From: Ectocarpus siliculosus
Lineage: Eukaryota; Sar; Phaeophyceae; Ectocarpales; Ectocarpaceae
Direction: 5' to 3'
Length of the DNA stretch: 64,000 bases
NCBI GenBank assembly: GCA_000310025.1
Contig: FN649751.1
Coordinates: forward strand, 6,146,871 to 6,210,870
The notes under the pieces were generated by a model. It saw only the letters and a list, made by a program, of their open reading frames with translations, was not told the origin of the DNA and searched no databases. Shown here one piece after another: positions 10,438-59,462 of this stretch. Numbering within the stretch: the stretch's first letter is position 1; each line of letters begins with the position of its first letter. A program made the translations under genes and the position numbers.

Positions 10438-13400
10438 CCTACAGGTCTCATAGATGACCTCGTTCTGTGACTTCGCCGCCCCTTGAATAAAATAAATAAT
10501 GGAATAAAAGGAGTAGTTTATTTTGTTTTCTTTCGAATTGCTTCATTATTTCTTCGGTTTCTAGGCTACGTGTTGGGGAGAGAGACGCACGAAACGCTCA
10601 TCGTCTCTCCGGCCGCGTTAGCTGCGAAGGCCGGCGTCAACTGTTACAAATCCATCTCTCTCCCCATAAATACTAGCCGGGGGACTACGACTGCAACCGC
10701 AGGAGTCCCAAAACTGACCAAGTCCTCAAATGGTACACACCATTCTACAACACCCGACTAGATACCGAATACTCCCGAACTTATGCCCCCACCTTCGAAA
10801 GAAAAGGGATGGGAGGGCGGGATTTCCTAAACTGCCGCCGCTACTGCGTTAGGCGGCTGCTGCTGTCCTTCCGTTGCTTCACGCGCTGTAGCTCTCACAC
10901 GTTACCCGACTTTGCTACAGCCCCTGCGTGGACTCGATCACGGAATGACATCCCCACCTATAGACAACAATAATAAATCCAAACACCGTGACCCTGGGTT
11001 TCCGATAGAAAATGAAGCCAAATTCTAATTCGACTGTTACAAAATAAACACCAGTTTATTCTATCTGCTCTTCGAACAAACCTTCCTTTTATTTTGTTTT
11101 CTTTCGAATTGCTTCATTATTTCTTCGGTTTCTAGGCTACGTGTTGGGGAGAGAGACGCACGAAACGCTCATCGTCTCTCCGGCCGCGTTAGCTGCGAAG
11201 GCCGGCGTCAACTGTTACAAATCCATCTCTCTCCCCATAAATACTAGCCGGGGGACTACGACTGCAACCGCAGGAGTCCCAAAACTGACCAAGTCCTCAA
11301 ATGGTACACACCATTCTACAACACCCACATCGAGGTCAGTTTCTGGACGACTACCGAATAACTCAACTATGCGTTCCCCATACGGTCCCCTCCCCCGGCT
11401 GTCTCAATACAATCCTGCTGCCGTCTGTAAGTTCCGTGACACTCGCCGCGAATCCTCTACATTGTTTGGCGCATACGGCTTGTAGGCATTCGACCTCCAC
11501 TTCCCTTCTCTCTGAATCACTCGTTCTGCGATGTCTCCGCCCGATGCAAGAGCCGTCGCGTCTCCAATTCGCAACGAGTGCAACGCGTACTCCTGGGGGT
11601 TACGCCCCGACTTCGCTACCACTTCTCTTACTGCGCGGAGGGCAGCACTATACTTCACTACTCTCACTGCTCTTCCACTACGGTACGGAGCCAACGGAGC
11701 GGAGTCAGGCAACGTCGCATGACACGACAATAGCTCCACCACAAGAGCCACCGCGCCGCCGCGTGCTCTCACACCTGACTGCGGTCCGGTGACTTCGTCT
11801 CGCGTACGAACCCGTATGTTGCCTTTCTGCTCTTGATCGGCCTTGTGCCCTCTAAACCTCATTTCGACACGGTCTGCTCTACGACAGTGACTAAAGTCTA
11901 GTTGCGTCCCGTCGGCAAACAATGATTTGTCCACCCTCGTAAGACGGTGTGCCTCATGCACCCTGCCCGCGTCATTCGCAAACACCTCATCAGACCGTGT
12001 GATGAAGAGATAGGACAGGCACAGACACAGCCACATCACTCTGCCCCCTTCCCCCCAGTTCTGCCTTGCGCTTTCCCCGTCCAGCGGCATACGCCATAAC
12101 ACAGGCAGGCGCACACGGCGTACCGTCCCCATAGCCACGTGGTTCCTCGCCATCCCCCTTAGCGCACATTTCAACATCGGAGACGACAAGTCTAGCTCGA
12201 CCGAAGCTTCCAGCCTACAAGTATGAAAATGTTGCACAGCCGTGAGTTTTCCGGATATTGTACTCGCTAGGTTACCCTCAGACTCGAAACACCAGGCTAC
12301 GAAGTCTATCAACTCCCACACATGAAGGCCCCTGGCACGTTGCCCTAGAAACTTGGGCTTCCCCGTCAGCCTCCGAAACGTGCACCAAGAGTTGAAGCCT
12401 GGCGTGCAAAGTCCTTCTAGACAACTGAGTGCTCGACGAGCTGGATGCCAAGACGTCGGTAACAGAGTCCTGTCCTGCCTGTCCCAGGTCCTGAACCTGC
12501 TGATTGACCTGGGCCAACCTCGTGTAGACCGGCGTGCTGCCGTTCGATTTGGCCGCATGTGCGCTGCCAACCGAGGTAGGCCCCCCCCGCCACGCGGGAG
12601 AGCCCGCACCTCTATTTGTCTTTTCCGTGGGTGAAGAAATCAGCGGCTGTGGGCCTCGCGCCGCCCTCGCCAGCGGCGCGCGCCTCTCCTCCGCACCCCC
12701 TGCCCCGTTGCCGTGGCCAACGTTGCGACCACGGTCTTCGACCCGGAAGTTTGAGAGCGTGTCGAGCGATGCAGCCACTTTCTCTGACACCAGAACGCCT
12801 TTGCGAGGCAAGGATTGCCACTTCGGCTCCGACAGTTTTGCAACTGCCGGAGGCCGTCCGAGGATGAGCCATGCTTTTAACCGGCGGAGGTCCCCCTGCA
12901 TCCGCGCCCTATCCTTTGCCGCAGCCTTAGCAGCCTCGGCGCTGGGTACAGCGGGGGCCCGAGATGCCGGTGGTGGGGCGGTTGTGCCCACCAGTTGCAC
13001 CTCCCCCTAAAGGCCAGGTCCTGCTGCTTGGGCGGCGATCAGGTCGTCGATCGATGCTTGAAGCTACTGGCGATCGCCGCCAGCCTCGTCCCGCCCCCGT
13101 TGCAGCTCCTCCCTCAGGCCGTCCACCAGCCCGCGGAGAGGAGCGAGCTCAGTCTCGTCAGCGGGGGGGGGTCGCCGCGGGTGCCTGTCCCTGTCCCTCG
13201 CGACGAGGATACCGCTCGACGCCTCGCGGGAGTACGTGACCCGCTCCGCGTCGAGGGGCGAGCCGTCGAGATCGCCACCGATCGCGCGGTAGACCTCGTG
13301 CGTGGTGTCGAGGGTGTCGCCGCCCGACCTCGCCCTGCTTGCCCGGCCGCAGCCCTGGCGCTCCGCGTGGAGGCCCGTGTCGGCATCTGGTCGCGGTTGG

Positions 13401-16400: not shown

Positions 16401-19400
16401 CGTCCGTTGCTGAAACTGACAACACATATGCAGCCTGGGTGCTTCCACTCATTGGCGCGTCCCGTGCTGATACGTGTACGGCTTTTGTTTTTCCGGTGAG
16501 ATCGATTAACTCTACTCGCCAACAGCACGAGTGCTTCCACTCATTGGCGCGTCCCGTGCTGAGGCTGACATCACATATGCAGCACGGGTGCTTCCACTCA
16601 TTGGCGCGTCCCGTACTGATACATTATTTGTGGTCTTTTTCCTTCCGATGCGTTGAATTCGGTGAACTCTACTCGCCAACAGCGCGGGTGCTTCCACTCG
16701 TTGGCGCGTCCCGTGCTAAGGCTGACAGCACACATGCAACACAATGCGGTTAACTCTACTCGCCAACAGCGCGGGTGCTTCCACTCGTTGGCGCGTCCCG
16801 TGCTGAGGCTGACAGCACACATGCAACACGTTGCGGTTAACTCTACCCGCCAACAGCACGGGTGCTTCCACTCATTGGCGCGTCCCGTGCTGAAACGTGT
16901 ACGGCTTTTGTTTTGTTTTTCGGTGAGATCGATTAACTCTACTCGCCAACAGCACGAGTGCTTCCACTCATTGGCGCGTCCCGTGCTGAGGCTGACATCA
17001 CCTATGCAGCACGGGTGCTTCCACTCATTGGCGCGTCCCGTACTGATACATTATTTGCGGTCCTTTTCCTTCCGATGCGTTGAATTTGGTGAACTCTACT
17101 CGCCAACAGCGCGGGTGCTTCCACTCGTTGGCGCGTCCCGTGCTAAGGCTGACAGCACACATGCAACACAATGCGGTTAACTCTACTCGCCAACAGCGCG
17201 GGTGCTTCCACTCGTTGGCGCGTCCCGTGCTGAGGCTGACAGCACACATGCAACACGTTGCGGTTAACTCTACCCGCCAACAGCACGGGTGCTTCCACTC
17301 ATTGGCGCGTCCCGTGCTGAAACGTGTACGGCTTTTGTTTTGTTTTTCGGTGAGATCGATTAACTCTACTCGCCAACAGCACGAGTGCTTCCACTCATTG
17401 GCGCGTCCCGTGCTGAGGCTGACATCACATATGCAGCACGGGTGCTTCCACTCATTGGCGCGTCCCGTACTGATACATTATTTGTGGTCCTTTTCCTTCC
17501 GATGCGTTGAATTTGGTGAACTCTACTCGCCAACAGCGCGGGTGCTTCCACTCGTTGGCGCGTCCCGTGCTAAGGCTTACAGCACACATGCAACACAATG
17601 CGGTTAACTCTACTCGTCAACAGCGCAGGTATTTCCACTCGTTGGCGCGTCCCGTGCTGATACGTTTTCGACTTTCGTTTTTTTTTTTTTTTATTATTAT
17701 TATTTTTTTTATTGCGTTGAGATCGGTTAACTTCCACTCGCCAACAACACGGTTTCTGCTTCTGTTCATCCGTTCCCGTGAATGCTGTTGTATGCACTTT
17801 CCAATTACGCATGCGGCCGCTTTGTATTCCGTGGGACTTGTCAATGCCATCAGTGGAGACGATAGCTTACGTGAGCATATTATCGTCGATGCATTCGGCT
17901 ACATTTACCCGTCTGTGCGCGGCACAGACCAGGTACGGGCAAGTAGTCCCGAGTGAGCCGCGGGAAACAGAGAACAAGGCACCGGCACCATGTGCATACT
18001 CTTGACAGCACACACCACGTGCCCCACTGCCGCGGGTCGATCGGTTATGTCCGATGCCGCAAGGTTTCCCCACCCCGTGCAGTACGATGGCTGCTATCGT
18101 GGCACGTACAGCAGCGCGTTTTCTCCGTTGAAATATTTTTTCAGCGATAGTACATCTCGGTTGGGATGAACCACATCCCATGTGTGGGAGGGTACCTATC
18201 TGAACGGCGTGGCGAGAGAGACTGCGGTACGCCGCTTATCTTACTGCACCCTCCCCCCCCCCGTGCTATGCACGCAGCGGTGAGGTCACAAGAGTAGCGG
18301 GACGCGGGAAGGAACACGGCAGACACGACGGATGTTGAACACGGACCCGATTACACACCTTATATGGAGGGTCCCGAGCGCGCGCTGGTCGCTTCCCCAA
18401 TGCTTGCGCCGCGTCCCGTCCCGTCCATTTTCTAAACTGCCGCCGCTACTGCGTTAGGCGGCTGCTGCTGTCCTTCCGTTGCTTCACGCGCTGTAGCTCT
18501 CACACGTTACCCGACTTTGCTACAGCCCCTGCGTGGACTCGATCACGGAATGACATCCCCACCTATAGACAACAATAATAAATCCAAACACCGTGACCCT
18601 GGGTTTCCGATAGAAAATGAAGCCAAATTCTAATTCGACTGTTACAAAATAAACACCAGTTTATTCTATCTGCTCTTCGAACAAACCTTCCTAAATATGT
18701 TGTGTCGGGCACGTAGTGTACCCCGACGAAATCCTTGATTCATCGTCTTGTGTCTCCATGTGCGGTACACGCCTGCATAGGCGGTTCATGAAGCTTGCGC
18801 GAACGGACACCGGGATGCTCTTGAGCAGCTCTTGAAGCGAGGGGCAGACACACAAAAGACAACCTTCCTTGGGGGGGACACACCTCTTCATTTGGCCGTG
18901 AACTCCGGCAATAGATCTGCTGTATTCTTGCTCCTCCGGCACGGATGCGACCCCAATGTGCCCAACAAGTACTCTGCGACTAGTTTCCACTACGCTGGCA
19001 GCAAACCCACAATCGCCAAGCTCCTTCTACGGTAAGTTTTCGAGACACTAGTGTTTACCCGGTGCAGATCATACAGATTGTTATTTAGCGTTGCCTATGG
19101 GTACAAACACTGGTTGAGTTCGACTCTCCGAGTATCAATCTGCCGCGGTGTCATGGAATCCTGCACGGCATCGCAAGCATGCAAGGCGCCAACGTTCGAA
19201 TCGACGCAGAGCGATTGGGGGTTGAGATTAGTAAAGAGAACACGCATTCAGCCCTGACTTGGGGTGTAGTCGGATGCTGAAGACCGCCTGGTCGGTTGGA
19301 GGTAGGCCGTACCGGGCATGGTCTACAATAGTGTATCTGGAGCAAGTCAGATGAAACCAGCTCCTGCTCGTAAATGGTACGGTCTACCACGTCAGTAGAT

Positions 19401-25300: not shown

Positions 25301-27456
25301 GCGAGATGTTCTCGTGGTGTTGAATCGTCCGGTTGCCACGCGCCGAATCTCAGACGTAGCCGAGTTTCCAAAGTTTGCTTTTTTGGTTACCTTCCTTGGT
25401 CTCTGCCTCTCTGCTTTTCCCCTACATTCGTCAAATCATACCCGTTTATCTTTTCTCGTTCTACTTATTCTGTACGTTTCTCTCCCCCGTCACATCTCAC
25501 ATCGACGCTGGACGATAGCACGTCCGCCACATAGTCCGACTCGAAGAACGTCCCGGCAGAGAACACGTAGATCGCGAACATGCAGTGGCAAACAAGCATC
25601 ATGGGCATCGCGTGCGCCGCAACCTTGACGATTCGACCATCATACTGGTATGATGCGTCGTGGCAAGCCGTAGGAGCGAACGAGGAACGCAGGAGCGGAG
25701 AAGGTGGATGATGAGCGCTTAATGCCTCGCCGTCGTCGAGTGACGGTCCCATACGGTCCACACGGCCAGGGTTGGGATAGGGCTGGACCGCGACATCTTG
25801 CTTTTGCTCTTGCAAAAACCAAACAAACTCATCTTTATCCATACATAGGAGGCCAGGATGAACAAAATAGCAATTAGTTCCTTGTGGTAGGAAACCTACT
25901 GCACCTGTGTCTACCACTTTTGCGTGAGAAAAATACAGTGATATCTCACCCGTAGGTAACGTTTGATTTCTTTGCATTTGATTTTCTGTACAGTAGCCCG
26001 GAAGGTGGAATGAGCCAGCCTGGAGATGGAAACCGAAGCGTGGAACCACGATGTGCAGCCTATCAGTCTCACAGCGTCTCGCAAGGGTACTTCCCGAACT
26101 CTCTATGCACACCACCTCTGGCGCACAATCACGCACCTAGGTGTCAAACGCGATACGCACGGGTGGGCCCTCTTCCTAAAATATCGACGCGTGTGTTGCC
26201 TGCTCTTATGCACAGTAGGCCGTGAAAGTAGAAGTAGTACCTCACCGTCGTCGTTTGAGGTTCACCTCGTTGTTCGAAATACTTGAGAAAACGTATGCGC
26301 TGTGATCGGACCTGCGGGGGCGTGCAGCAGGCCCGGAGCAGGTAGAACTTGTCCCCAAAGTAGGTGGCGACGAGATACACGGCAACCATCGGGAAGAGCA
26401 CGGGAAGTGCCGGCGAGAAGGTGACCGCCACCGCTAACATCATCAGCGTGATCGGCAGGCGCGCCGACAAGTCGAAGTTTCGGCCTGGGTTACCAAAGGA
26501 CAAACGCCATCGACGGTCGCGAACAAGCGAGGGTAAGGGATACGGCTTCTTCTTTGTGAGGGAACGCACATGAATGTCTGTCCTTTGAACACAACCGATG
26601 GATGGGTTGTGTTTCCGAACGTGACGTTTGCTCACCGCCAAGAAAAAATTGGAGATCTGAATACCTCTTCCACCTCACAACCCGGGCGGAAAGAGCGTGA
26701 CGGCACACATGTTTCCAATTCGGCTGGTGAAACCCTCATAAAACTCTGCGCTCCGTTGCTCGCTCGCAACCTTGCTTCAAGTAGCTGATGTAGAGTGGGT
26801 GTTTATTTTTGCTAACCTGTTCACTCATCCCACCATCATAGCTGCTCTACAAGGTCGGGTCTATTGTGGCTTCCACTCTGTGTGGCCACCCCCTGCACAC
26901 GAGCTCGTGAAACCCACTTCGCCATCGCACCCTCATTTAACGGAGTTTTCCAACTGAGCTGCTACTGCTGCTGCTACTGCTGCTGCTGCTGTTGTTGTCG
27001 CTGCCAGGTGGGCCTTCACGTTTGAACGACCCGAGGGATCCAGCGAGAATCCCCCCGAAAGGAAAAACGGCAGCACCGCTTCGATGTAGGCCCTGGAACA
27101 CGGTAGTTGTTTACCCGATCTACCTAGGCGGTGCTTCTACGACATATAACATTCGCACCGACAAATCTACCTCGCGCCTCACCCTTCCAGTCTCTGTTGA
27201 GCTGTCTCTGTGTGATCACCGACGAGGCTGCCGCTGGTCTTCTCCGCCAGGGACCAAGGGCGAAGTGCTCCACCAGGTCCGGGAGGCGGGGCGCGAAGAC
27301 GTTGATGGCGATCGTCGTGATAAGAGCCTGGCCCGTGGTCGTGTACCACTCGACGCCCTCGGCCGATTCGGCCGCCAGTTTTGCCGCAGTCATGGCGTTT
27401 TCGGACCCGAACAGCTGGCAGCGTTTGTTTTTGACGTGGTCGTGGTTGTGGTTGTT

Positions 27457-42161: not shown

Positions 42162-44287
42162 CTAACTCCCGCCTAGCCTGTCTTCTATCTCGAAGCAGTC
42201 CGGCCTTTCAAATGGGTCTTCCGCCAGCATGCTTCCCACGAGAGTACAATCCAGCAAACCTGCCCCTTCCTCTGGGTGCGGTGTTTTTTCTTCGCCGGAC
42301 TTTACCCTTTCCACGAGCCCACCTTCCCCCGTTAAACAAACCTCGCTAAGACCCCTGGAGAGAATGTAGTGGCGCCAAAACTCGAGCATCAATACTCCAA
42401 GCGCGTACACATCCGAATGCGAGTCCACGACATCTCCCCGGCGACGTTCGGGGCTGGCAAAATGGTGATGCTCTGGTGCGCCTTTGCGACAGCCAGGGGG
42501 TGTGACCTGACTCAGGTTCCCCACGCAACAACGTCCATCTGCAGCTACCTGTGGTCATGGACGAAAACGTGGAGAGTTGAAGTGAAATTAAACTGTTAGG
42601 AATCACCAGCGGACAGAGGGGTGGAAGCCGCAGCAGCTGTGTCAAGAACAAGTACACGTTCACGATGTAACCTTCGGGTGGCTGTCGCTCTTCAGAGTTT
42701 GTGCATCACCACCCACTAAAACGCTATTACTAGGTGTCATTGCGTTGGAACACGCCAGGCGGCAGACCTGAAAACTTTTCAATTTGTCGTGGAGACGACT
42801 GGGGAGAAGGTCGTCACCCGAGACGACCTGCGGTAGGGCAGCCAGTGCTATTAATAATTGCTTTTAATATACCTGTCAGCTTGAACTCATCACCCCGAAC
42901 CACCGTTCTTGGCAAAAACAAGTCTGTGTCAATCTCGAAGAATCGTCGCAACCCAACTAAGAGCGACGTTGTGTTTTTGGACATGCACGTGCGAACAACG
43001 CTGTCCTAACGATCTTTCGACAAGTGTGCTGAACCCCCCCCCCGACACAATCCATCTTGAGCACAACCGGCTCGCAACACTCCGCACGCGTACTTCGGGC
43101 AGGTGGAACGCCTCCCCCCTCCCTTAAGGGCGCACGCTGCACGTGCACGAACTCACCCACAGGCTGCAAGGATGGATGTTATTGTGCACGAGCCCCTTCG
43201 TATGGAGGTGCTCCACACCGCGCAGTACCCCCTTGAACATCGACATCAGATGTCGCCAAACGAGCGCCCAATCATGAGGGGCTGTCACAGCCCTTGTTGT
43301 CGTTGCGCCGTCTTGCCCTTCTGGCGCAGCGGTTTGCGGTTCGAACTCCGTGTCAAACCAAACCGACAAGGGCAGCCAGTCTGGCAGAAGAAGATACGAC
43401 GTCAAGCAAAGTGTGCGCTCCCGCTGCCTGCGGACGATTTCCCTGCCGCTACGTTCGGTCCTTCTGGTTTGGCTGTCACAACAGCCGCAGCAGTAACCAC
43501 CTGAAGCCGCAGCGGCAGAGTTGAGGGATATCGGCCGTGGCTGAGCCGTTGGCAATGGCGATGAGGTGCAACCAGTGCAAGAAGTAGTCTCGTCGGTAGA
43601 TGGTTTTGGTTCGGCGGTTCCTTTCCAGCCAGTCGTGCCGTCCCCTCCCCACCGAAGCTGTTCCAACCCTCCATGCTGCGGGGGCGCTGTACTTGCGTCG
43701 TCGATGCTCTTGTTGCTGTGAGACATTTCGCCCATTCCACCATCCTCGCAATCGATGTCGTCTAGTGTGAGCGGAACCCGCGAATGTAGTAGGAAGGCAG
43801 CAGCATGCTCCTCGTCTCCTGAATACCTGTCTCTCTTTGCGTAATACGGAGGAAAACCAGCTTCCGTTCGAAAGCAACCACAACAGGCCATCGAACCCTG
43901 CGCTGCTGATGCTGTTGTTGCTATGGCAGCGTCCCTTGAATGTGGTTGCCGCAGGGAGCATTCGTCCAGCACAGCAGTGGTAGCAGCATTCCCCAAGCAT
44001 CGATGTTGACGCGTGCTGTGCGCAACGCGTTCTATGCCGATTGCGTCTTGCGCTGCCGACACCGAAGCGTAGTTGGCCCCCTCAACCTGGCTCTTCCTCA
44101 TGCTTCTCGTATGAACATGAAACTGTTCCAAGCCTGCTCGCTCTTCCAGCCACCCTTGCTCTAGCGGGACCACATAGTCGTGAGATAGCGTGTCGAGGAG
44201 ACGTGCCTCTCTTATCATGAGTTCCCTTAGCCTTCCCAGCTGCGGCACAGCTAACCTCTCGGACAAGACGAACCTGGCCAGTAACAA
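42162..44287 (-). CDS. Protein-kinase-fold protein with degraded catalytic motifs (probable pseudokinase)
   Basis: Proposed exons are about 44287-43157, 42933-42873 and 42538-42162 (stop), phase-consistent at both joins. The helix-C region reads LRELMIREARLLDTLSHDYVV. A roughly 230-residue insert follows, with two Cys clusters (CCGCF and YCCGCCD), a layout reminiscent of eIF2-alpha kinases. The catalytic loop is VHNNIHPCSLW, where active kinases have H-R-D-x-K-P-x-N. Thus the catalytic Asp is Asn, and the Lys and metal-binding Asn positions are also changed. The DFG position reads TDGRCC across the last splice. The C-lobe is otherwise intact: ASPERRRGD (APE-like), SHSDVYALGVLMLEFW and DPFERPD. 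The glycine loop and lysine strand must lie in unresolved upstream exons; the frame's first codon is not ATG. The acceptor of the 61-nt exon (TTCGAG) is unusual. Likely a scaffold or allosteric partner. Confidence 0.62.
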
Positions 44288-47924: not shown

Positions 47925-48571
47925 GTTAAGATGTACCGCATATCCATTACGCTACAAGTCAGCGCTAGTGGACATGCTGTACATCTTAACAAAAGTACGA
48001 CCGGGGTTCGAATCCCCCTGGGACCACTTGTGACGCCTTTTTTCCGGAAAAGTCTGGGATAGGCCTGAAAGACGGTGTACATTCCAGTCGTTCAAGTGTA
48101 GACACGTACTCCCGCCCTGTAAGTCGATGAACCGCATGGGGGCAGCGCTGGTCACAGACAGGGATTACAACCCTGGGGTTTACCGAGGTCCAAGCTCTAA
48201 CAGGCTGAAGGACCCCGGTTGTACTTTTGTTAAGATGTACAGCATATCCACTATGCTACAAGTCTCGGGTAACTGGTGTGCATCTTAACACCTTNNNNNN
48301 NNNNNNNNNNNNNNNNNNNNNNNNNNNNNNNNNNNNNNNNNNNNNNNNNNNNNNNNNNNNNNNNNNNNNNNNNNNNNNNNNNNNNNNNNNNNNNTTTCAT
48401 AGAATTGTAGCATAGTGGATATGCTGTACATCTTAACAAAAGTACAACCGGGGTCCTTCAGCCTGTTAGAGCTGTTGGACCTCGGTAAACCCCAGGGTTG
48501 AAATCCTTTTGTTAAGATGTACCACATATCACAGTGACTTGTAGCATAGTGGATATGCTGTACATCTTAAC
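47925..48571. repeat. tRNA-like inverted-repeat units around an assembly gap
   Basis: GTTAAGATGTAC and its complement GTACATCTTAAC bracket hairpin units at 47925-47990, 48229-48289 and 48511-48571. A half unit lies at 48401-48437. The strand around 47960 reads AGCGCTAGTGGACATGC followed by GGGGTTCGAATCCCC (about 48003-48017), resembling RNA polymerase III A and B boxes. The acceptor-stem halves do not pair, so this is not called a tRNA gene. Sequence 48164-48260 is repeated inverted at 48401-48505, forming a large palindrome centred on the gap. Confidence 0.75.
48295..48394. other. Assembly gap of exactly 100 N
   Basis: One hundred ambiguous bases at the centre of the palindrome. The round number suggests a gap of unknown true size. 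Confidence 0.98.
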
Positions 48572-50032: not shown

Positions 50033-50243
50033 ACTGGCACTAAGCTCGCAGTTTAGTTGGGCCGCCTACCTCAAGATTCTCCACACCACACCTCGTCGCC
50101 CGTTAGCGTTTGCTGCTGCGTGATTGCTCACCCTTTGCTCACCTCGTGCGTACAACAATAGGCTGTGTCAACAGCCAAGGCAGCACGATTGCTGTGTGGT
50201 TCCACTATTGCCGCGGTGAGGGAGCTTCCTAGCACAAGACATC

Positions 50244-53200
50244 ATGACTGAGGAGGTCTCTGCGGCAGAATCCGCCCTCCAGCGAGGAGTTTCGGTCAAG
50301 CCCGAAGTGTCTGGACAGCTGAAGGACTCTACAAATGGTACAGAGGACTCGGCTATCACAGCCTCCTACCGGCAGGGGGAGTTGATATTTCTGATGGTGA
50401 GAGCAGTTGGCGCGTTACGGCCCTTGGGAACCCTTAGATCTACATTGTAGATGGATTCTCCTTCGTATGTTTACTGCATGCACACCGGAGCATTGAATCT
50501 TTTCGAAGGGGTTGCTGGTGTATGTTCCTGGTTGCATACAAGCACTGGCTGTTCGTACATCACGAAACGAGTCGTACTTTGTTTTGCTCCTCACACCTCA
50601 CAGACAACTCCGGGTGGTGGATGCTAAGCCACCCTCTATCGAAAAGCAAGCAGTCACCATGATACCATGTCCAAGTAGCTGCTTGCCTGCCAACGTGGCC
50701 AACCCATCACAGCTGCGGAATCCGACCTCGTGCAACTGACCGTTGATGCTGCGTCCCCGGCACCTTGCACATGCTGCTCCCGTCCATCACACCGTCAGCT
50801 ACTATTGGGGTGCTTGGTGGGATTCATCGCCTTCGTGTGAGTGACAACATTCATTGAGCAAGTTGTATTGGGTGGGAAAGTGGAGTCTTCCCAGAGTCCG
50901 TACCGACGTCTGCTGTATGTACTTGTTTGAGTATTCGGACTTGTTTGAGTATACTACACTATTGTACGCATTTGAATGTCCAGAAATAGCTGTAGGTGCT
51001 TGCACAAGTAGTAGAGCGGAAGGCGCGTGGAATTAAGTTGACTTTTGCTCGAAATTCGAACCATGCTCTCGTGGTACGCGGGGGGGCTACGGTTCCGAAT
51101 GATCATTTTGTCTGTACGAAGATCGCACAGTACCTTATGTTGTATTCTGTTGCTGTGTCATCCTTTGTCGCGTTTGTCTGTGTGTATACTTCCGCGATCG
51201 TGTGCATGCATGTAAGATTGGGGAGAAATTGTCCAAGAGCCAGTTCTCGAGGGGGAGGCAATAACGAAAGATAGACTCACTCGGTCACATAGGGTAACGC
51301 CTTCGTGACCCAACCGGACACCGACTAGTATCTGTTTCTTTGATGGCCGAACATATTCTGGTGGAGTCTAGTGGTCAATCTGCACGACTTCCTAGTTGCA
51401 GTGGTTGGTTCCATTCGCTCTCCGGAGGTGTTTGTTTCCCGGGATTTATTTCCAGCAAAGTGCAGCTGAATCGATCTACATGTACAAGTAGGTCATGAGC
51501 AAACAAACTTCGGCTTTACGGTCGACGATGGAAAGGGATGGCTGAACCCTTCCCGCGAAAAAAACTTGAAAACTAAGGCGCGCACCGCAGGTGGAAAAGT
51601 GGGACAATAAAACGAACACAAAAAATGAAAAAAGCTCCTGTGTCACCTTCCTCTTGTGTGACCCCGGCTGATAAGTCAGATATATATGCCGAAAGGCCTG
51701 TAAACCGGCGTCAGGATAGATGGGACGAACACGCACGCCACCTATTCTTGGGTGCCAGTCGTCATTTTTCGGAACATGTTTTGGTGCACCAACCGGAGTT
51801 TCACAAGAGTAGTTTCCCACCTTTCCTTTTTTTCCTGGGTGCCTGCCTTCCCTTGATAACGCGACAAGGGTTAGCACTGTACCTTCCCTCTCTGTTGGGT
51901 GTACTCTCGGCTCTAGTTTTTTTTGTTTGTTTTTTTCCCTCCGGAGAAAATTAGCCCACCTAGAACCAGGTTACGAGGTCTCCAACTGAACCGCTCAGCC
52001 AATCTTGCGTGACCGAGCTTGCCGACTGTCAATCGATTAAGTAACCGACACGTTCAGAATAGTTTTCATGCTCTTCCAGCCTATTGAGTAACGGTCTGAG
52101 ATCACACATATTAGGCCCCGTTCGCAGCTCCCTTTGCCATCAACGAAGCGAGCTTCGAACTGAATCGCTCTGTGAAATAGCCACGCCATGTCTAACAAGA
52201 GTATTGGGGTGTGATATCATTGGGAGTTAGCTGTAGGCATCCCTGGTATTGCCCTTCACGAAACCTTGTGTACACTCGAAGACTGTGGAAACTGTAACTT
52301 GTAGATGGCTTTCCCTATTCCTGCTGAATTCAGCTTAGGCGCCGTCTGATGTCTTCCTCTTTTTCTGTTCTATCTGCTCGTTTCTTTTCCTGTGCCTCTT
52401 TCATCATCGCCACACCGCCTGCCCGCATGTTTCGCATCCGTTTATGTTTCTCTACCCGATCGATATCAAGATACGATGGGGCGATGGAGCTGTCCCTGAA
52501 AATTGTCTGGAAGGTGATTCCCGGATACCTTGAGAGAATAGCAGAACAAGCCGAAGACGGCCTGGCCATGCTCAGCAAGTGGGGCTTCCTCTACACTATT
52601 GCTGCCTCCATTTTCCTAGCCACGGCTGCGGGAGCGAGCATCAAGTTCCTGGGCTTCCCCGGCGATCTCCCGGATGTCGTCCATTGCGTCCACGAGCTTG
52701 GATACGTCCCGATGTGCCAAACACTACCGATGGTGAGAGCAGCTGTAAGGTCTTTGGTAGATGCTGGTGCGGCGGAAGAGGAGCACCAAGGATCTACGAA
52801 TGATGTTCCTGCCGAATAGGATCCAATCAGGGCCAAGCACATCCTTGGTTATCCTGAGTCTGTTCTCTGCAGTCACTTTCCCATTCCTCCTCCTGCTTCA
52901 CTCTCAGATTTGCTGCAGCCTTTTCAGCATTGCGGCCGGTGGTTCGCTGGGGCCAGAAGCTCCGCTCGTGGCCGTATCAGCATCAGTGTCGGGATACATA
53001 TCAATGCACTACTTCAATCATGACATGGTCATGGTTCGGAAGTGTACCATTATCGGCATGTCTGCGGGACTCAGCGCTTTTTTTGGCGTTCAGCTCGGCG
53101 GTAAGAGCATGTGTCTGAATGTGTCCGTATCAGTAGGGGATGGTCAATGGTAGCACTGCGTTGTTCTCTTGTCCCATACGTACAATGAAATCGGTGTCCG

Positions 53201-55440
53201 CCTTGTGTTTTTTTTTCGATGCCATTTTTGCTTGGACGCGTTTAAAACCTGGCCGACTACAACCATCCTACATCTGCACATGAGTTTACTTTTCCTTTGG
53301 AAGCCGCGCGCCAGAATGCAGTGAAATAGCGATGGTGCAAACAGACGCTCGCATCCATGGGCATTCTTGTCGGCATATATGCCGGGTAGTATACTGCGTG
53401 CCCTGCCAATCCAAATGCGCCATTCGCAATTTTCGGGGATCACCACAGTTGCACCGGTCGTTCCTCTTCTGTCGCATGTCCACGTCTTCTGCTCAACGTC
53501 TGTCCCGAGCACCGGTTTTCCCTCTCTTGCCGTCCCTGTGCTGCATTTGCTACTATCTTGATGGGTTGCCTCCCAGGAGCTTTGTTTGCCCTGGAGGTTC
53601 TCCACACTATGGGGATGCAGTTCTTTGACGTGGCCGTCTACGCGATCGGGTCGGGCGGTGTATGCTTGGCGGTCTACCGTGGCCTCCAGGGAGATGAGTT
53701 TGGCGTGATTTGGAGCTTTCCCGATGCGCCGCAAAGCACTGCGACGGAGGTTATCGGCGGGGCCATTGTCGGCGCGATCGCGGGCGGCGTGGGGATCGCG
53801 TTCCGAAGGTGCGTAGGGGGCACGTTTCGAGTCGAATATTTCGCTGCTTTCGCCGCTTTGCCGTCACCCTTGCTACAGCAGCGCAAGCAACAAGCCAGAA
53901 GATGGTGCTTGTCAAGAGTGCAAATTTTTCCACAACCCGACGGGTGCTCTGTTCTTCTGTTTGGGCGTGTCCCCTTCTTAGCATCAACGATCTGATTGAC
54001 GCGGCACACGTGCGAAGCTGCCTTACCAGATTCGAAGATGCCTACTGATGACCAATAGTCCTCGCTTAAACAACGTTACCTTGGGCCGACTCCCGGTCTT
54101 CCCGGTGATGGCCATTCCCCCCTCTCGTCGACACTCTTCCAGCGTGTTCCGAAAAATTGGCAAGGGGGTGAGCATCCTTGGCCTTGGCCACTTCGAGGAC
54201 ACCGAGTCGCCCATCATCCTGTGCGCGTTGGGCGGGCTGTGCGTGTCTGTGTTGGGCGTTCTGGTGCCACCGTCCATGTTCTGGGCCGAGTTCGAGATCG
54301 GCTCAATCGCCGAGCCAGGCAAGCCTCTGCCCCACATCTGGCCGCAGGTGAACACGGGGTTGAAGCGCACCCTCGTGCATACGTTGCGAGCCCGTTGTGA
54401 AACTGCGCCCGCTGCAGGCCCAACGACTTATCATATGCAAGGTGCGCCAATCTGAGCATCTACTATTTTCATTTGAACCTATCGGCATTCACCACCGCCA
54501 TCGATGTTCTCTTCTTTCAGGGAGGCGTTTTCTATGGTCTCGAGCGATATCCGTGGGAGTCGGGCGCAATGTACTTGCTCGTCGGTCTGATTAAGCTGCT
54601 GGCCATCGCCTTCACCGTGCAATCAGGCTTCCGGGTACGTGGATCGCTCTAGAGAGGGAACGAATCAATCGAGCACGCGAGTTGAGAAACGAATAAGAAA
54701 ACCAACCTCCCCAGAAAAACTACATTGAAGGTCGTGCTCTTGCGTGACATATTTTAGGCGTCAATGGCGACCAATTGTTACAATAAGTTCCTCAAATATT
54801 TCCTCAAAATAATGCCGTAGAAGTCGTTGATCTTGTGGGTGGAACTTCGTAGAAGGCAACCCCTTTCGCCCGTCGTGCGCACGCATGGCTCCAAACCCAT
54901 CTTGAGCATTGTTGTATTCTGTACCCCGCATGTTCCTACCTGTCTCCAATTCGCTTCTCAGTATTGTGCGAACAATGTACTCGAGCGTGGGACGTTTGTT
55001 TCTCCTCTCCCCCACGAAATACCAATGTACACCTGTTGCGCTTTTCTGTGGGACACGCAGGGGGGCTTCATCTTCCCGCTCTTCTTCGCTGGGGCTTCGT
55101 TCGGCCGCGCCCTCCTGTCGATTACGGACGACGTCCTAGCTCCTGGTTTGGTGGCTGCAAGCCCGGCCCTCCTGTGCATGTGCTTCGCGGCGGGACTCAA
55201 CGTGGCAGTGACACGGACGCCGTTTGCGTCGCCGCTGATCCTTGCCATTCTCTCGGGGCAGCCCAACGTCATGGCCCCGGCCCTGTGCGCGGCTCTCGCC
55301 TCCCTCTTCGTCACCCGGTCATCCAAGTTCATCGGGCCACAGAAGGACCGCGCGGATCTCCAGTTCATCGGCGACCTCCAGCCGCTCGAGCTACCGCCTC
55401 CACGATCCGCCTCTTCGGCATCTCAACCGTTTGTCCGCTC
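50244..55440 (+). repeat. CLC segmental duplication, unit 1
   Basis: This unit and 55700-59462 share gene structure and most exon sequence. The 262-nt exon differs at only about five positions by eye (52471-52732 against 56495-56756). Introns have largely diverged. Unit 1 has a much longer second intron (1634 against 366 bp) that contains a copy of the repeat also found at 61025. Confidence 0.88.
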
Positions 55441-58400
55441 TGTGTGTAAGCGCCCCGGTGTTGCGTCTAGCGCTAACGGTAACGGCAGCACCGTCAGGCA
55501 GGACGAGGAGACGGGCTCGTTGAAAGGTGTCGGCGCCAGTGCCGGAGGGTACAACGCGCTCTCGATTCAGAATACAATTAGCGTCGAGGACCCTCTACCG
55601 GATGATCCCGTGAGGTCCGAAGGGTCGATGTTCGGAAAGAAAGAGACTGCAATGAGAGAGTCGCAGGAGGAAGAGGAGAAGGAGGAAGAGGAGGAGCCCA
55701 TCACGGCGTCATATCGGCAAGGAGAACTGATCAAGATGATGGTGAGGAAACCTATTGACGGCACGGTCGAGTGTTTGGCGAACATGTTGTTCGTGGTTTT
55801 AAAAGGCTTGGAGATTGACCGAGAGTAGTTCCCCTTGACAGGAGTGGAAGTATGGAAATGCGGGAGAGGGCTAACAGGATCCCAACCGCCACATTAACGA
55901 AATCATGCACATTGTCCCAGGAGCAGCACTTCCACTATCAATCATCATTGTAATCATCGATGCTCCCACCTCAAGTGATACGTGGCAAAAACTAACTCCG
56001 GCATGTGCCATCTGCTGCCTCCCCACACTGTCGGCGCATCACTACCAATCGTCCCAAACATCTCATCACGGTCTGTGCGGCCATCTCCAGATCCTGTTCG
56101 GGTTCTTGGTGGGACTCGTCGCCTTCTTGTAAGTTGGACCTTTCGGCGGTTGCCAAGGCAGATGCCTCTTTCGTAGCTTTCGGGATATATTTTACGGATG
56201 AATCTAGCTTCCATCCTCGTGTTTGTGTGAGATAGCGTGCCCTCGAGTACTGTGCTCTATTGTATATGAGCTCAAGGGTCCAAGAACCTGCGCAACAGTG
56301 ATGCCTGGGGCCCTGCGTAAGCGTGGAGCTAGCGACAGCACCTGTGCGTATCTTATACGTTTATGCTCAATATTTTCTACTCTTCGGGGGGGCGGTCCCC
56401 GAACGTTGCCCAAAGGCTGTGTTTTGTTTGTCCACGTTGCCTTTGCCACGAATTTTGAATTCCATCTTCTCCGTGCACATCCCCCCACATCAAGGTACGA
56501 TGGGGCGATGGAGCTGTCGCTGAAAATTGTCTGGAAGGTGATTCCCGGATACCTTGAGAGAATAGCAGAACAAGCCGAAGACGGCCTGGCCATGCTCAGC
56601 AAGTGGGGCTTCCTCTACACTATTGCTGCCTCCATTTTCCTAGCCACGGCTGCGGGAGCGAGCATAAAGTTCCTGGGCTTCCCCGGCGATCTCCCGGATG
56701 TCGTCCATTGCGTCCACGAGCTTGGATACGTTCCGATGCGCCAAACACTACCGATGGTGAGTTGGCGTATGAACAAGGAGCGTTTCAGCTTCAACCTGGC
56801 CCCAGGAAGTGCCTTACACGGGATTTTTCGCCGTCAAGCAATTTACCGGTTGCTGTTTTTCATATAGTTGACTGTTGCCCACTTCCTCCTTCTTCTATCC
56901 GCCCTGATCCTCAGATTTGCTGCAGCCTTTTCAGCATTGCGGCCGGTGGTTCGCTGGGGCCAGAAGCTCCCCTCGTGGCCGTGTCGGCGTCAGTATCGGG
57001 GTACATATCCATGTACTACTTCAGGCATGACATAGTGATGGTTCGGAAGTGCACCATTATCGGCATGTCTGCGGGACTCAGCGCTTTTTTTGGCGTTCAG
57101 CTCGGCGGTGAGGGCACGAATCCACTATATGTGTAGCAGCAGCGGATAATAGCGTCAACGTGGTAGTGTCCCGCAACGACCACCGTTGAATGGTGAAAGC
57201 AAGGGCATGGAATGTCCTGGACGAAAGCACGCACACACACAGGGTGTGGATCGTGTGGTATATACCACCTTGTCGCCTGGACCGCTGCCATGGGTTTGCG
57301 GCAACTGGTCATGTCTTGTCCCCCCGAGGACAGAATCCAGGGACAAACCCGAGAACCAATGCAACGTGACCATGACGCAGCTGCGACCGGAAAACCTCAT
57401 GCGGAAACAGGAATTGACTTACTAGACAAAGATCCACTGACACATGAGAATACTCGGTATACCTTTTGGCTTGTGCTTCGCTCACCCCTACCTCATTCTC
57501 GATATGCAACGTCGTTTCCAGGCGCTTTGTTTGCCCTCGAGGTTCTCCACACCATGGGAATGCAGTTCTTTGACGTGGCCGTCTACGCGATCGGGTCGGG
57601 CGGCGTGTGCTTGGCCGTCTACCGCGGTCTCCAGGGAGAGGAATTCGGCCAGATTTGGCCTTTTCCTGAATCGCCGCTTAGCAGTGCGACGGAGGTTATC
57701 CTCGGGGCGGTTGTCGGCGCGATGGCGGGTGGCGTTGGAATCGCATTCCGAAGGTGTGCATTCTGTAGTTTTTTCGAGTTTCACGCGTGGCAGCTTTGTC
57801 GCCACCTCCGACACAAAAGTGACAGTGGATTGCGTCATGCTGCGCGTAGCCCGATCACCACTGACCATCAAAGCATCTGACGTACTTGCATCTGTTGTCG
57901 TCGGACTCGACATGAAAAACGTTGGCCTGACCACCCGATTGAACGCGTTTGCGATACTCAATGGGGAACGAAAAACTGCTCGCTCTGTTTCTCTGAAATG
58001 AATAGACCTTTGTGGGCCTTCTGCTGGGTGAACGAGTACTTGTAGTACCGTGGAAAAACCCGCCCTTCCGTCGTGCGCTAATAAATTCTGCATACATAGA
58101 AACACATCGCGGGTTCTTAGAACAACTTGCTGGATTTTTCCTAACATCTAAATTACCGCAACCTACTCGTCTTCACACCATCGGTTCCACTCGCGCCCTC
58201 CCTTCGCTGTTGCATCACCCTTCCAGAGTGTTCCGAAAAATAGGCGAAGGGGTAAGCATCCTCGGCCTTGGCCACTTCGAGGACACCAAGTCACCGATCA
58301 TTCTGTGCGCGTTGGGCGGGCTGTGCGTGTCCGCGTTGGGTGTTCTGGTGCCACCGTCCATGTTCTGGGGTGAGTTCGAGATCGCCTCGATCGCCGAGCC

Positions 58401-59462
58401 AGGCAAAGACCTGCCCCACATCTGGCCGCAGGTGAAAAAAAGGCGTGAAGGACAACCTTATACAATAATCTCTTTCGCCCCCGTGCCTATCTTTGCACAC
58501 CGCTGGTTCTGTGGCCTCGTTTTCAAAATGACACCGGCTCATGAACACCCTCGGTTTTCTCGGAGTGCAGGGAGGAGTCTTCTATGGTCTCGAGCGATAT
58601 CAGTGGGAGTCGGGCCCAATGTACTTGCTCGTCGGTCTGGTCAAGCTGCTGGCCATCGCGTGCACCGTGCAATCAGGCTTTCGGGTAAGTGGGTTGCGCT
58701 ACATAGGGAATAAATCAAATCACCATGTCTCGGGGGAGGTGCACAACCCATGAGGGTACCGTACACTGGTTGACAAGGAGATGCCAAGAATATTCTCCCA
58801 GGTTTTCATTTCTACACCCTCCACTCCAGCTCGAACCTCTTATGAGCTTGGCCATTTCTTTGCCCCGACTCGACAACCATCGATTCGTCCCTGTCTTGCT
58901 GCTCTTACAGGGGGGCTTCATCTTCCCGCTCTTCTTCGCTGGGGCTTCGTTCGGCCGCGCCCTCCTGTCGATTACGGACGACGTCCTGGCTCCTGGTTTG
59001 GTAACTGCGAGCCCCGCCCTCCTGTGCATGTGCTTCGCGGCGGGCCTCAACGTGGCAGTGACACGGACGCCGTTTGCGTCGCCGCTGATCCTTGTCGCCC
59101 TCTCTGGGCAGCCCAACATCCTGGCCCCGGCCCTGTGCGCGGCTCTCGCCTCCCTATTCGTCACGCGGTCATCCAAGTTCATCGGGCCGCAGAGGGACCG
59201 CGCGGATCTCCAGTTTATCGGCGACCTCCAGCCGCTCGAGCTACCGCCTCCACGATCCGCCTCTTCAGCATCTTCGGTTGGTTTCCAAGAGAATTTGATC
59301 AGTCACGGGAACGGCCACGGGAACGGTCGGCGGGCGGACCCAGAGGCGGGAAAGCTGTTGACCGAGAGCGGTCCCACGAGCGAATACAGTGCGATCCCGG
59401 AGCGCTATACAGAACAGGACGTCGCTCGTGCGATAAAGGCGGCACTTCAGACAGACGCTTAG
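50244..59462 (+). CDS. Double CLC chloride-channel protein (two CLC modules in one reading frame)
   Basis: CLC proteins are homodimeric chloride channels or chloride/proton exchangers with one pore per subunit. Exons of module 1: 50244-50396, 50799-50836, 52471-52732, 52908-53100, 53577-53808, 54143-54347, 54521-54634 and 55061-55741. Module 2: 56091-56128, 56495-56756, 56915-57107, 57522-57753, 58227-58431, 58571-58684 and 58911-59462 (stop). Internal exon lengths are identical in both (38, 262, 193, 232, 205, 114) and every phase matches. Exon 55061-55741 encodes the last helices of module 1, an acidic linker and ITASYRQGELI, the pre-helix motif also found in exon 1. It then splices in phase 0 into module 2 with no intervening stop. 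The total is about 1157 residues. Each module has GSLGPEAP (gating Glu region), ALEV and GGFIFP (pore). GSGIP is replaced by GFPGDLP, and CBS domains are absent. An undetected terminal exon or internal promoter could make it two genes. Confidence 0.85.
51491..51665. repeat. Dispersed repeat in CLC intron, partner at 61025-61195
   Basis: Shares the blocks CAAACTTCG, GTCGACGA(T/G)GGAAAGGGA, GGCTG(A/G)ACCCTTC, a GTGGGA word and TCCTCTTGTGTGACCC-like ends with 61025-61195, at about 75-80% identity by eye. It lies in the long second intron of CLC module 1. Confidence 0.7.
55629..59462 (+). repeat. CLC segmental duplication, unit 2
   Basis: Second CLC module. If it were a separate gene, the candidate start is the ATG at 55629 (MFGKKETAM), inside the exon that also encodes the end of module 1. 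Its own C-terminus diverges after LPPPRSASSAS and ends at 59462. Confidence 0.85.

Follow-up and report, generated by a model that had tools for sequence, protein, structure and literature searches.

Can a single gene encode both subunits of a CLC dimer? A locus of the brown alga Ectocarpus siliculosus raises the question. It lies in a window of 64,000 nucleotides (nt) from contig FN649751.1 (assembly GCA_000310025.1, positions 6,146,871 to 6,210,870 of the forward strand), and all coordinates below are those of this window. When the gene was rebuilt from the window sequence, 15 exons at 50244-59462 on the plus strand, separated by 14 introns that are all of the GT..AG type, gave a single frame of 1157 residues closed by the TAG at 59460-59462. 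The Pfam family PF00654 (Voltage_CLC) matches the spliced chain with an E value of 3.5e-75 in two stretches, one profile match in each module, and the better of these (chain 708-1059) covers positions 24-345 of the 346 in the profile. No Pfam family besides Voltage_CLC matches the chain at E 0.001 or better. The best NCBIfam match of module 1 is a ClcB-like model (E 8.3e-15), far under the cut-off of that model. Going by the sequence, this brown-algal gene probably codes for one chain holding two complete CLC subunits, joined by a hydrophilic and acidic linker of 92 residues. The parts of the gene model, all on the plus strand, are as follows.

50244..50396, plus strand: module 1 exon 1, from the ATG through ITASYRQGELIFLM to a phase 0 donor.
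50799..50836, plus strand: module 1 exon 2, 38 nt, start of the first hydrophobic segment; 79% identical to 56091-56128.
52471..52732, plus strand: module 1 exon 3; 98% nt identity with 56495-56756, synonymous divergence (dS) 0.05.
52908..53100, plus strand: module 1 exon 4, GGSLGPEAP with the gate Glu168.
53577..53808, plus strand: module 1 exon 5, ALFALEV, with Val223 at the ClcA Glu203 site.
54143..54347, plus strand: module 1 exon 6.
54521..54634, plus strand: module 1 exon 7.
55061..55741, plus strand: candidate fusion exon, from its open frame and codon score, with the last module 1 helices (to 55423), the linker and ITASYRQGELIKMM opening module 2.
55424..55699, plus strand: 92-residue linker between the cores, with 19 Asp or Glu, 10 Lys or Arg and no hydrophobic segment.
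55628..55630, plus strand: first in-frame ATG past the module 1 core, candidate start of a separate module 2 (GGGTCGATGT).
55742..56090, plus strand: junction intron, 349 nt, donor ATG/GTGAGG of 9.4 bits and acceptor of 6.7 bits; it corresponds to intron 1 of module 1.
56091..56128, plus strand: module 2 exon 2.
56495..56756, plus strand: module 2 exon 3.
56915..57107, plus strand: module 2 exon 4, gate Glu743.
57522..57753, plus strand: module 2 exon 5, with Val798 at the ClcA Glu203 site.
58227..58431, plus strand: module 2 exon 6.
58571..58684, plus strand: module 2 exon 7.
58911..59462, plus strand: module 2 exon 8, C-terminal tail (C-tail) and TAG stop.

In exons 2-7 the two modules agree pair by pair in exon length and phase, and the motif ITASYRQGELI is present in identical copies at chain positions 38 and 613. 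A hydropathy scan gave two similar sets of hydrophobic segments, with none in the linker. No such segment precedes residue 40 either, and plastid targeting is therefore not apparent. An in-frame TGA at 50217 lies upstream of the start at 50244. The only run of N in the window (48295-48394) falls outside the locus. The initial annotation had described exon 55061-55741 as open from the module 1 helices through the acidic linker into ITASYRQGELI, with a phase 0 donor at 55741 leading into module 2 in a kept frame and a chain of 1157 residues. Our independent rebuild reproduced each of these features, with the exon free of stops over its full length. Eight frame-keeping joins had been counted in module 2; all do keep the frame, but they number seven, counting 55741/56091. 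A possible internal start had been placed near 55629, where an in-frame ATG is indeed found, its first base being 55628.

Is the junction itself coding? We scored the 318 nt that begin at 55424, just past the module 1 core, and close with the donor at 55741. In the shared frame they have a codon score of 0.16 bits per codon, in line with the usage of the modules; the two remaining frames give -0.62 and -0.57. As a control we took 2772 segments of the same length from elsewhere in the 64-kb window, on both strands: 7 reach the score, 165 are open and 4 are both. The codon model is small, as it was trained on the two modules themselves. The part of the junction before the internal ATG (55424-55627) scores 0.05, a value reached by 40 of 2786 control segments, and the module 2 C-tail scores 0.03, reached by 58 of 2788. 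At the protein level the relation between the modules continues past the core into their C-tails, the first part of the linker resembling the tail of module 2. An ungapped alignment has 13 of 41 residues identical and a score of 49 that none of 2000 shuffles reached; BLASTP gives 23 of 56 identical, 10 of those 23 belonging to the shared core end PPPRSASSAS. This relation suggests that the module 1 coding tail extends to about 55561, which leaves 22 codons before the ATG at 55628.

For two ordinary genes, this interval would have to hold a stop and a 3' end for the first and a promoter and a 5' end for the second; the frame has no stop here, and there is little room. From the core end to the internal ATG there are just 68 codons, or 22 from the end of the related tail, and the next in-frame ATG is at 55652. 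We therefore regard as unlikely an arrangement of two separate tandem CLC genes, abutting or overlapping, in which module 1 would end by intron retention (55826) or weak splicing and module 2 would be expressed from an internal promoter with the ATG at 55628. The module 1 exon has no stop of its own, and the linker as a whole carries coding signal. At position -3 the internal ATG has a T, whereas the start at 50244 has an A. Against the 9.4 bits of the donor at 55741, the remaining candidate donors over 3 bits in the interval 55380-55800 reach 3.0-5.4.

Several observations nevertheless weigh against a single fused chain, some of them being what two separate genes would lead one to expect. An in-frame ATG does stand inside the exon, at 55628, and retention of the intron at 55741 would bring module 1 to a stop at 55826 after 654 residues, while splicing from a weak donor of 3.0 bits at 55445 would leave module 1 with 560 residues. 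The 22 codons before the ATG (55562-55627, 66 nt), taken alone, have no significant coding signal (211 of 2800 control segments). The openness of the 318 nt is only mildly unusual, since 107 of 10,000 shuffles of its bases remain free of stops in this frame, as do 165 of the 2772 control segments. At the DNA level the alignment of the C-tails is no better than chance, since 92 of 200 shuffles score as high. The proposed fusion is read from genomic sequence, and from one brown-algal genome.

Production of both forms, a fused chain together with one or both single modules through alternative starts, splicing or ends, seems somewhat less probable again than two separate genes. The elements for it are present, including a donor at 55609 (3.8 bits) that is in phase with 56091 and whose use would shorten the linker by 44 codons. 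However, these alternative elements are weak in score, and their use is hypothetical.

To determine how many copies of the locus there are, we searched its own genome, an assembly of 189,456,909 bases in 492 contigs with the window on contig C26 (7,075,294 bases); the match counts from these searches are lower bounds. The module 2 protein gave at least 14 matches; 13 fall in the locus, and the other is on C59, with 30% identity and E 0.004. For the DNA of 54521-55741 there were at least four: the query's own position, two places in module 2 that correspond to it, and 35 nt at C26:1955895. The fusion exon has one full-length match listed in the assembly, and the sole match listed for the junction intron is the intron itself. 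PF00654 was matched at least eight times, four times at the locus and four times elsewhere (C59, C4 twice, C2). Among the matches listed, no unfused version of this gene is found elsewhere in the assembly, and the locus appears to be single-copy there. The missing stop, the little intergenic room, the coding signal of the linker and the one genome copy together make the fusion the best reading of the locus.

How old is the duplication? Comparison of the two cores gives 444 identical residues out of 483 and 39 that differ, a nonsynonymous divergence (dN) of 0.045 and a dS of 0.228. For outgroups we drew on a second profile scan of prokaryotic genome contigs, which returned at least 150 relatives, 80 of them being kept (a first scan of prokaryotic genome contigs found no relative). 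Of these 80, 37 were chosen for spread, among them a truncated frame (L089) and a long frame (L099), and ClcA and ClcB of Escherichia coli were added. At the 39 differing residues, the 39 outgroups side with module 1 at 13 and with module 2 at 14, and the other 12 are tied. This even divergence, together with the low dN relative to dS, points to two functional modules, and neither looks decayed. The first hydrophobic segment holds eight of the 39 differences, within chain positions 49-64.

The divergence is spread unevenly along the gene. Exons 3-8 (52471-55423 and 56495-59273) have 86-98% DNA identity between modules, with dS from 0.05 in exon 3 to 0.40 in exon 5, a heterogeneity with a chi-square p of 0.0015 on rounded counts. 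Identity of the shared parts is lower in exon 1 (69% of 42 nt) and exon 2 (79% of 38 nt). The synonymous changes of exon 1 are saturated, at 9 of 9.7 sites, and exon 1 differs from exons 3-8 with p 2e-6. Of the seven intron pairs, which hardly align, five have a best local score that 12 to 61 of 100 shuffles also attain. The intron 3 pair is marginal (2 of 100) and the intron 7 pair scores above all 100; the exon 7 match between the modules continues for 34 nt beyond the donor. Neutral introns are expected to be still alignable at a dS near 0.2. The simplest account would be an old tandem whose exons were repeatedly homogenised, with exchange halting at the diverged introns. Such a pattern, alike in exons and unlike in introns, would make a clear case for concerted evolution within one gene. 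Two alleles or a collapsed repeat are ruled out by the intron divergence.

An assembly or base-calling artefact, with a missing stop or a misjoined repeat mimicking a fusion, is very improbable: the exons are alike enough to mislead an assembly, and an assumed ungapped register, only suggestive, places TCG at 55625 opposite the module 2 stop TAG, one base apart, but the locus contains no N, its introns are too diverged for alleles or a collapsed repeat, and the junction intron has no second copy among the matches listed.

We also examined whether the two pores are equivalent. Aligning the two-module profile to ClcA with hhalign gave one match, which placed the first half of the module on the second half of ClcA, and because of this mispairing a four-sequence and then a 41-sequence alignment was used for residue calls. 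In ClcA we take Glu148 to be the gating glutamate, Glu203 the proton glutamate and Tyr445 the pore tyrosine. Both modules have GPEAP with the gate Glu (Glu168 and Glu743), which is Glu in 39 of 39 outgroups. Compared with ClcA, the modules lack the selectivity motif GSGIP, replaced by PGDLP in both, the pore Tyr445 is absent from both in the alignment with ClcA, and the Glu203 site is occupied by Val223 and Val798. At that site 37 of the 39 outgroups have a hydrophobic residue and two have Glu. ClcB also lacks GSGIP, so this motif marks a subgroup and not the whole CLC family. In animal ClC channels a valine at the Glu203 site accompanies channel behaviour. With the gating Glu kept and a valine in place of the proton-pathway Glu, the modules would more probably conduct anions passively, or with weak coupling, than exchange them strictly for protons.

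None of the 39 differences between the modules lies in PGDLP, GGSLGPEAP, ALFALEV or GGFIFP. The proposal that the two modules are fused into one polypeptide, a built-in dimer, holds to the extent that the frame is continuous and contains two CLC domains. The two unequal gates proposed with it were not borne out, as the gate Glu, PGDLP, ALFALEV and GGFIFP are the same in both. The pores had also been said to differ at several residues; the cores do differ, at the 39 positions of 483, but at no recognised motif residue. Unequal gating is possible but not indicated by the sequence.

How might such a protein have arisen and how would it work? An old tandem duplication may have lost the stop and the intergenic region between its copies, which would then have been kept alike by exchange confined to exons. 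The N and C termini of CLC proteins are both cytoplasmic, and the two halves of a CLC pair are parallel. With the termini on that side, a soluble linker of 92 residues should suffice for a side-by-side pair; it would be cytoplasmic and long enough for the modules to fold next to each other. From CLC architecture, the modules are likely to pair within the chain, and the product would be a pseudo-dimer formed inside one molecule, nearly symmetric and with two anion pathways. The main consequence of the fusion would be that pairing is 1:1 and obligate. On balance, and with less assurance than for the fused chain itself, we favour the view that this is the first natural single-chain CLC pseudo-dimer, an old and maintained brown-algal fusion with near-identical pathways in a 1:1 ratio and gene conversion limited to exons. 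If true, it would fix the pairing of subunits, leave asymmetry free to evolve and give a way into the study of how brown algae handle anions.

The rest of the window and genome was also surveyed. Rfam and tRNA scans of the window gave no matches, nor did Pfam on 10 open reading frames (ORFs) of the window or PHROGs on two of these. On the minus strand, 26309-26476 is a fragment similar to RSN1_7TM (E 3.2e-4, under the curated cut-off), a domain of OSCA/TMEM63-type channels. Nearby minus-strand segments with coding-like codon usage, 7 of them without a Pfam match, may belong with it. An ORF at 43127-43900, also on the minus strand, has a very weak protein-kinase match (E 0.13) that is not significant. 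A tandem array at 16253-17687 matches itself at offsets of about 427 nt and multiples, and 10517-11326 and 18427-18692 are near-identical segments (99.6-100%) that may come from an element mobile or duplicated in recent time. The genome has at least 87 matches to the light-harvesting family PF00504; matches of this (FCP) type with equal score many times over on C92 (L112, L113), C232 and C488 are probably recent arrays. Another, L111, matches PDB chain 9ygv_17 (FCP17) with 325 bits over 156 residues; 9YGV is photosystem I from the giant kelp Macrocystis pyrifera (PMC13219633), and this one protein agrees with a brown alga or a near relative as the host. In the same assembly a search for the RuBisCO large subunit gave no match, and Beta_helix had at least 16.

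Among known proteins, the closest of the 80 kept out of at least 150 prokaryotic relatives are cyanobacterial, with 34-35% identity over most of the module, followed by Bacteroidota near 30%. The cyanobacterial CLCs are single-unit, whereas the algal chain is double: none of these 80 relatives has a frame of 900 residues or more. Of 98 genomes in the phylum of the genome (G001) that holds relative L029, at least 49 have a CLC match. Among the frames listed in these 98, none has two full CLC matches, and three combine a full or partial CLC match with a fragment. A scan of viral contigs found no relative and no such fusion. In searches of PDB, phmmer with module 1 found no match, and with a two-sequence profile there were three, all weak (E 0.0057 at best) and all to a CLC-type fluoride/proton antiporter, on which we do not rely. 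ClcA and ClcB are 22% identical to the modules and have the CLC domain and the gating Glu in common with them. These dimers, like those of animal ClC-0, ClC-1 and ClC-2, consist of two separate chains, whereas here there would be two full units per chain. One review reports that brown algae and diatoms have CLCe homologues, with identities of 25-35%, and describes CLCe as without the usual Cl- selectivity motif (PMC3928508). The plant CLCe type is single-unit, and it is likened to the algal modules by its published description.

In the open full-text literature, at the level of titles and abstract openings and with subscription papers and eukaryotic sequence databases outside its scope, we found no natural single-chain CLC. 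Laboratory-linked CLC dimers conduct, according to one study, which also describes CLC dimers as having two independent pores and a common gate set by subunit contact (PMC7026490). Such artificial linked dimers are a tool for the study of the common gate and of subunit contact. Like the algal chain they carry two subunits, but they are artificial, whereas this would be a natural gene. A dimeric anion channel family, the fluoride channel Fluc, has fused forms in eukaryotes, as stated in a further paper (PMC3755343). Fused Fluc is likewise a single chain produced by duplication and fusion in an unrelated family. There the halves run antiparallel and an extra helix is required, whereas for a CLC pair a soluble linker is enough. 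If the fusion is real, evolution took the same step in brown algae as was taken in the laboratory with linked CLC dimers, as it did with the Fluc channels.

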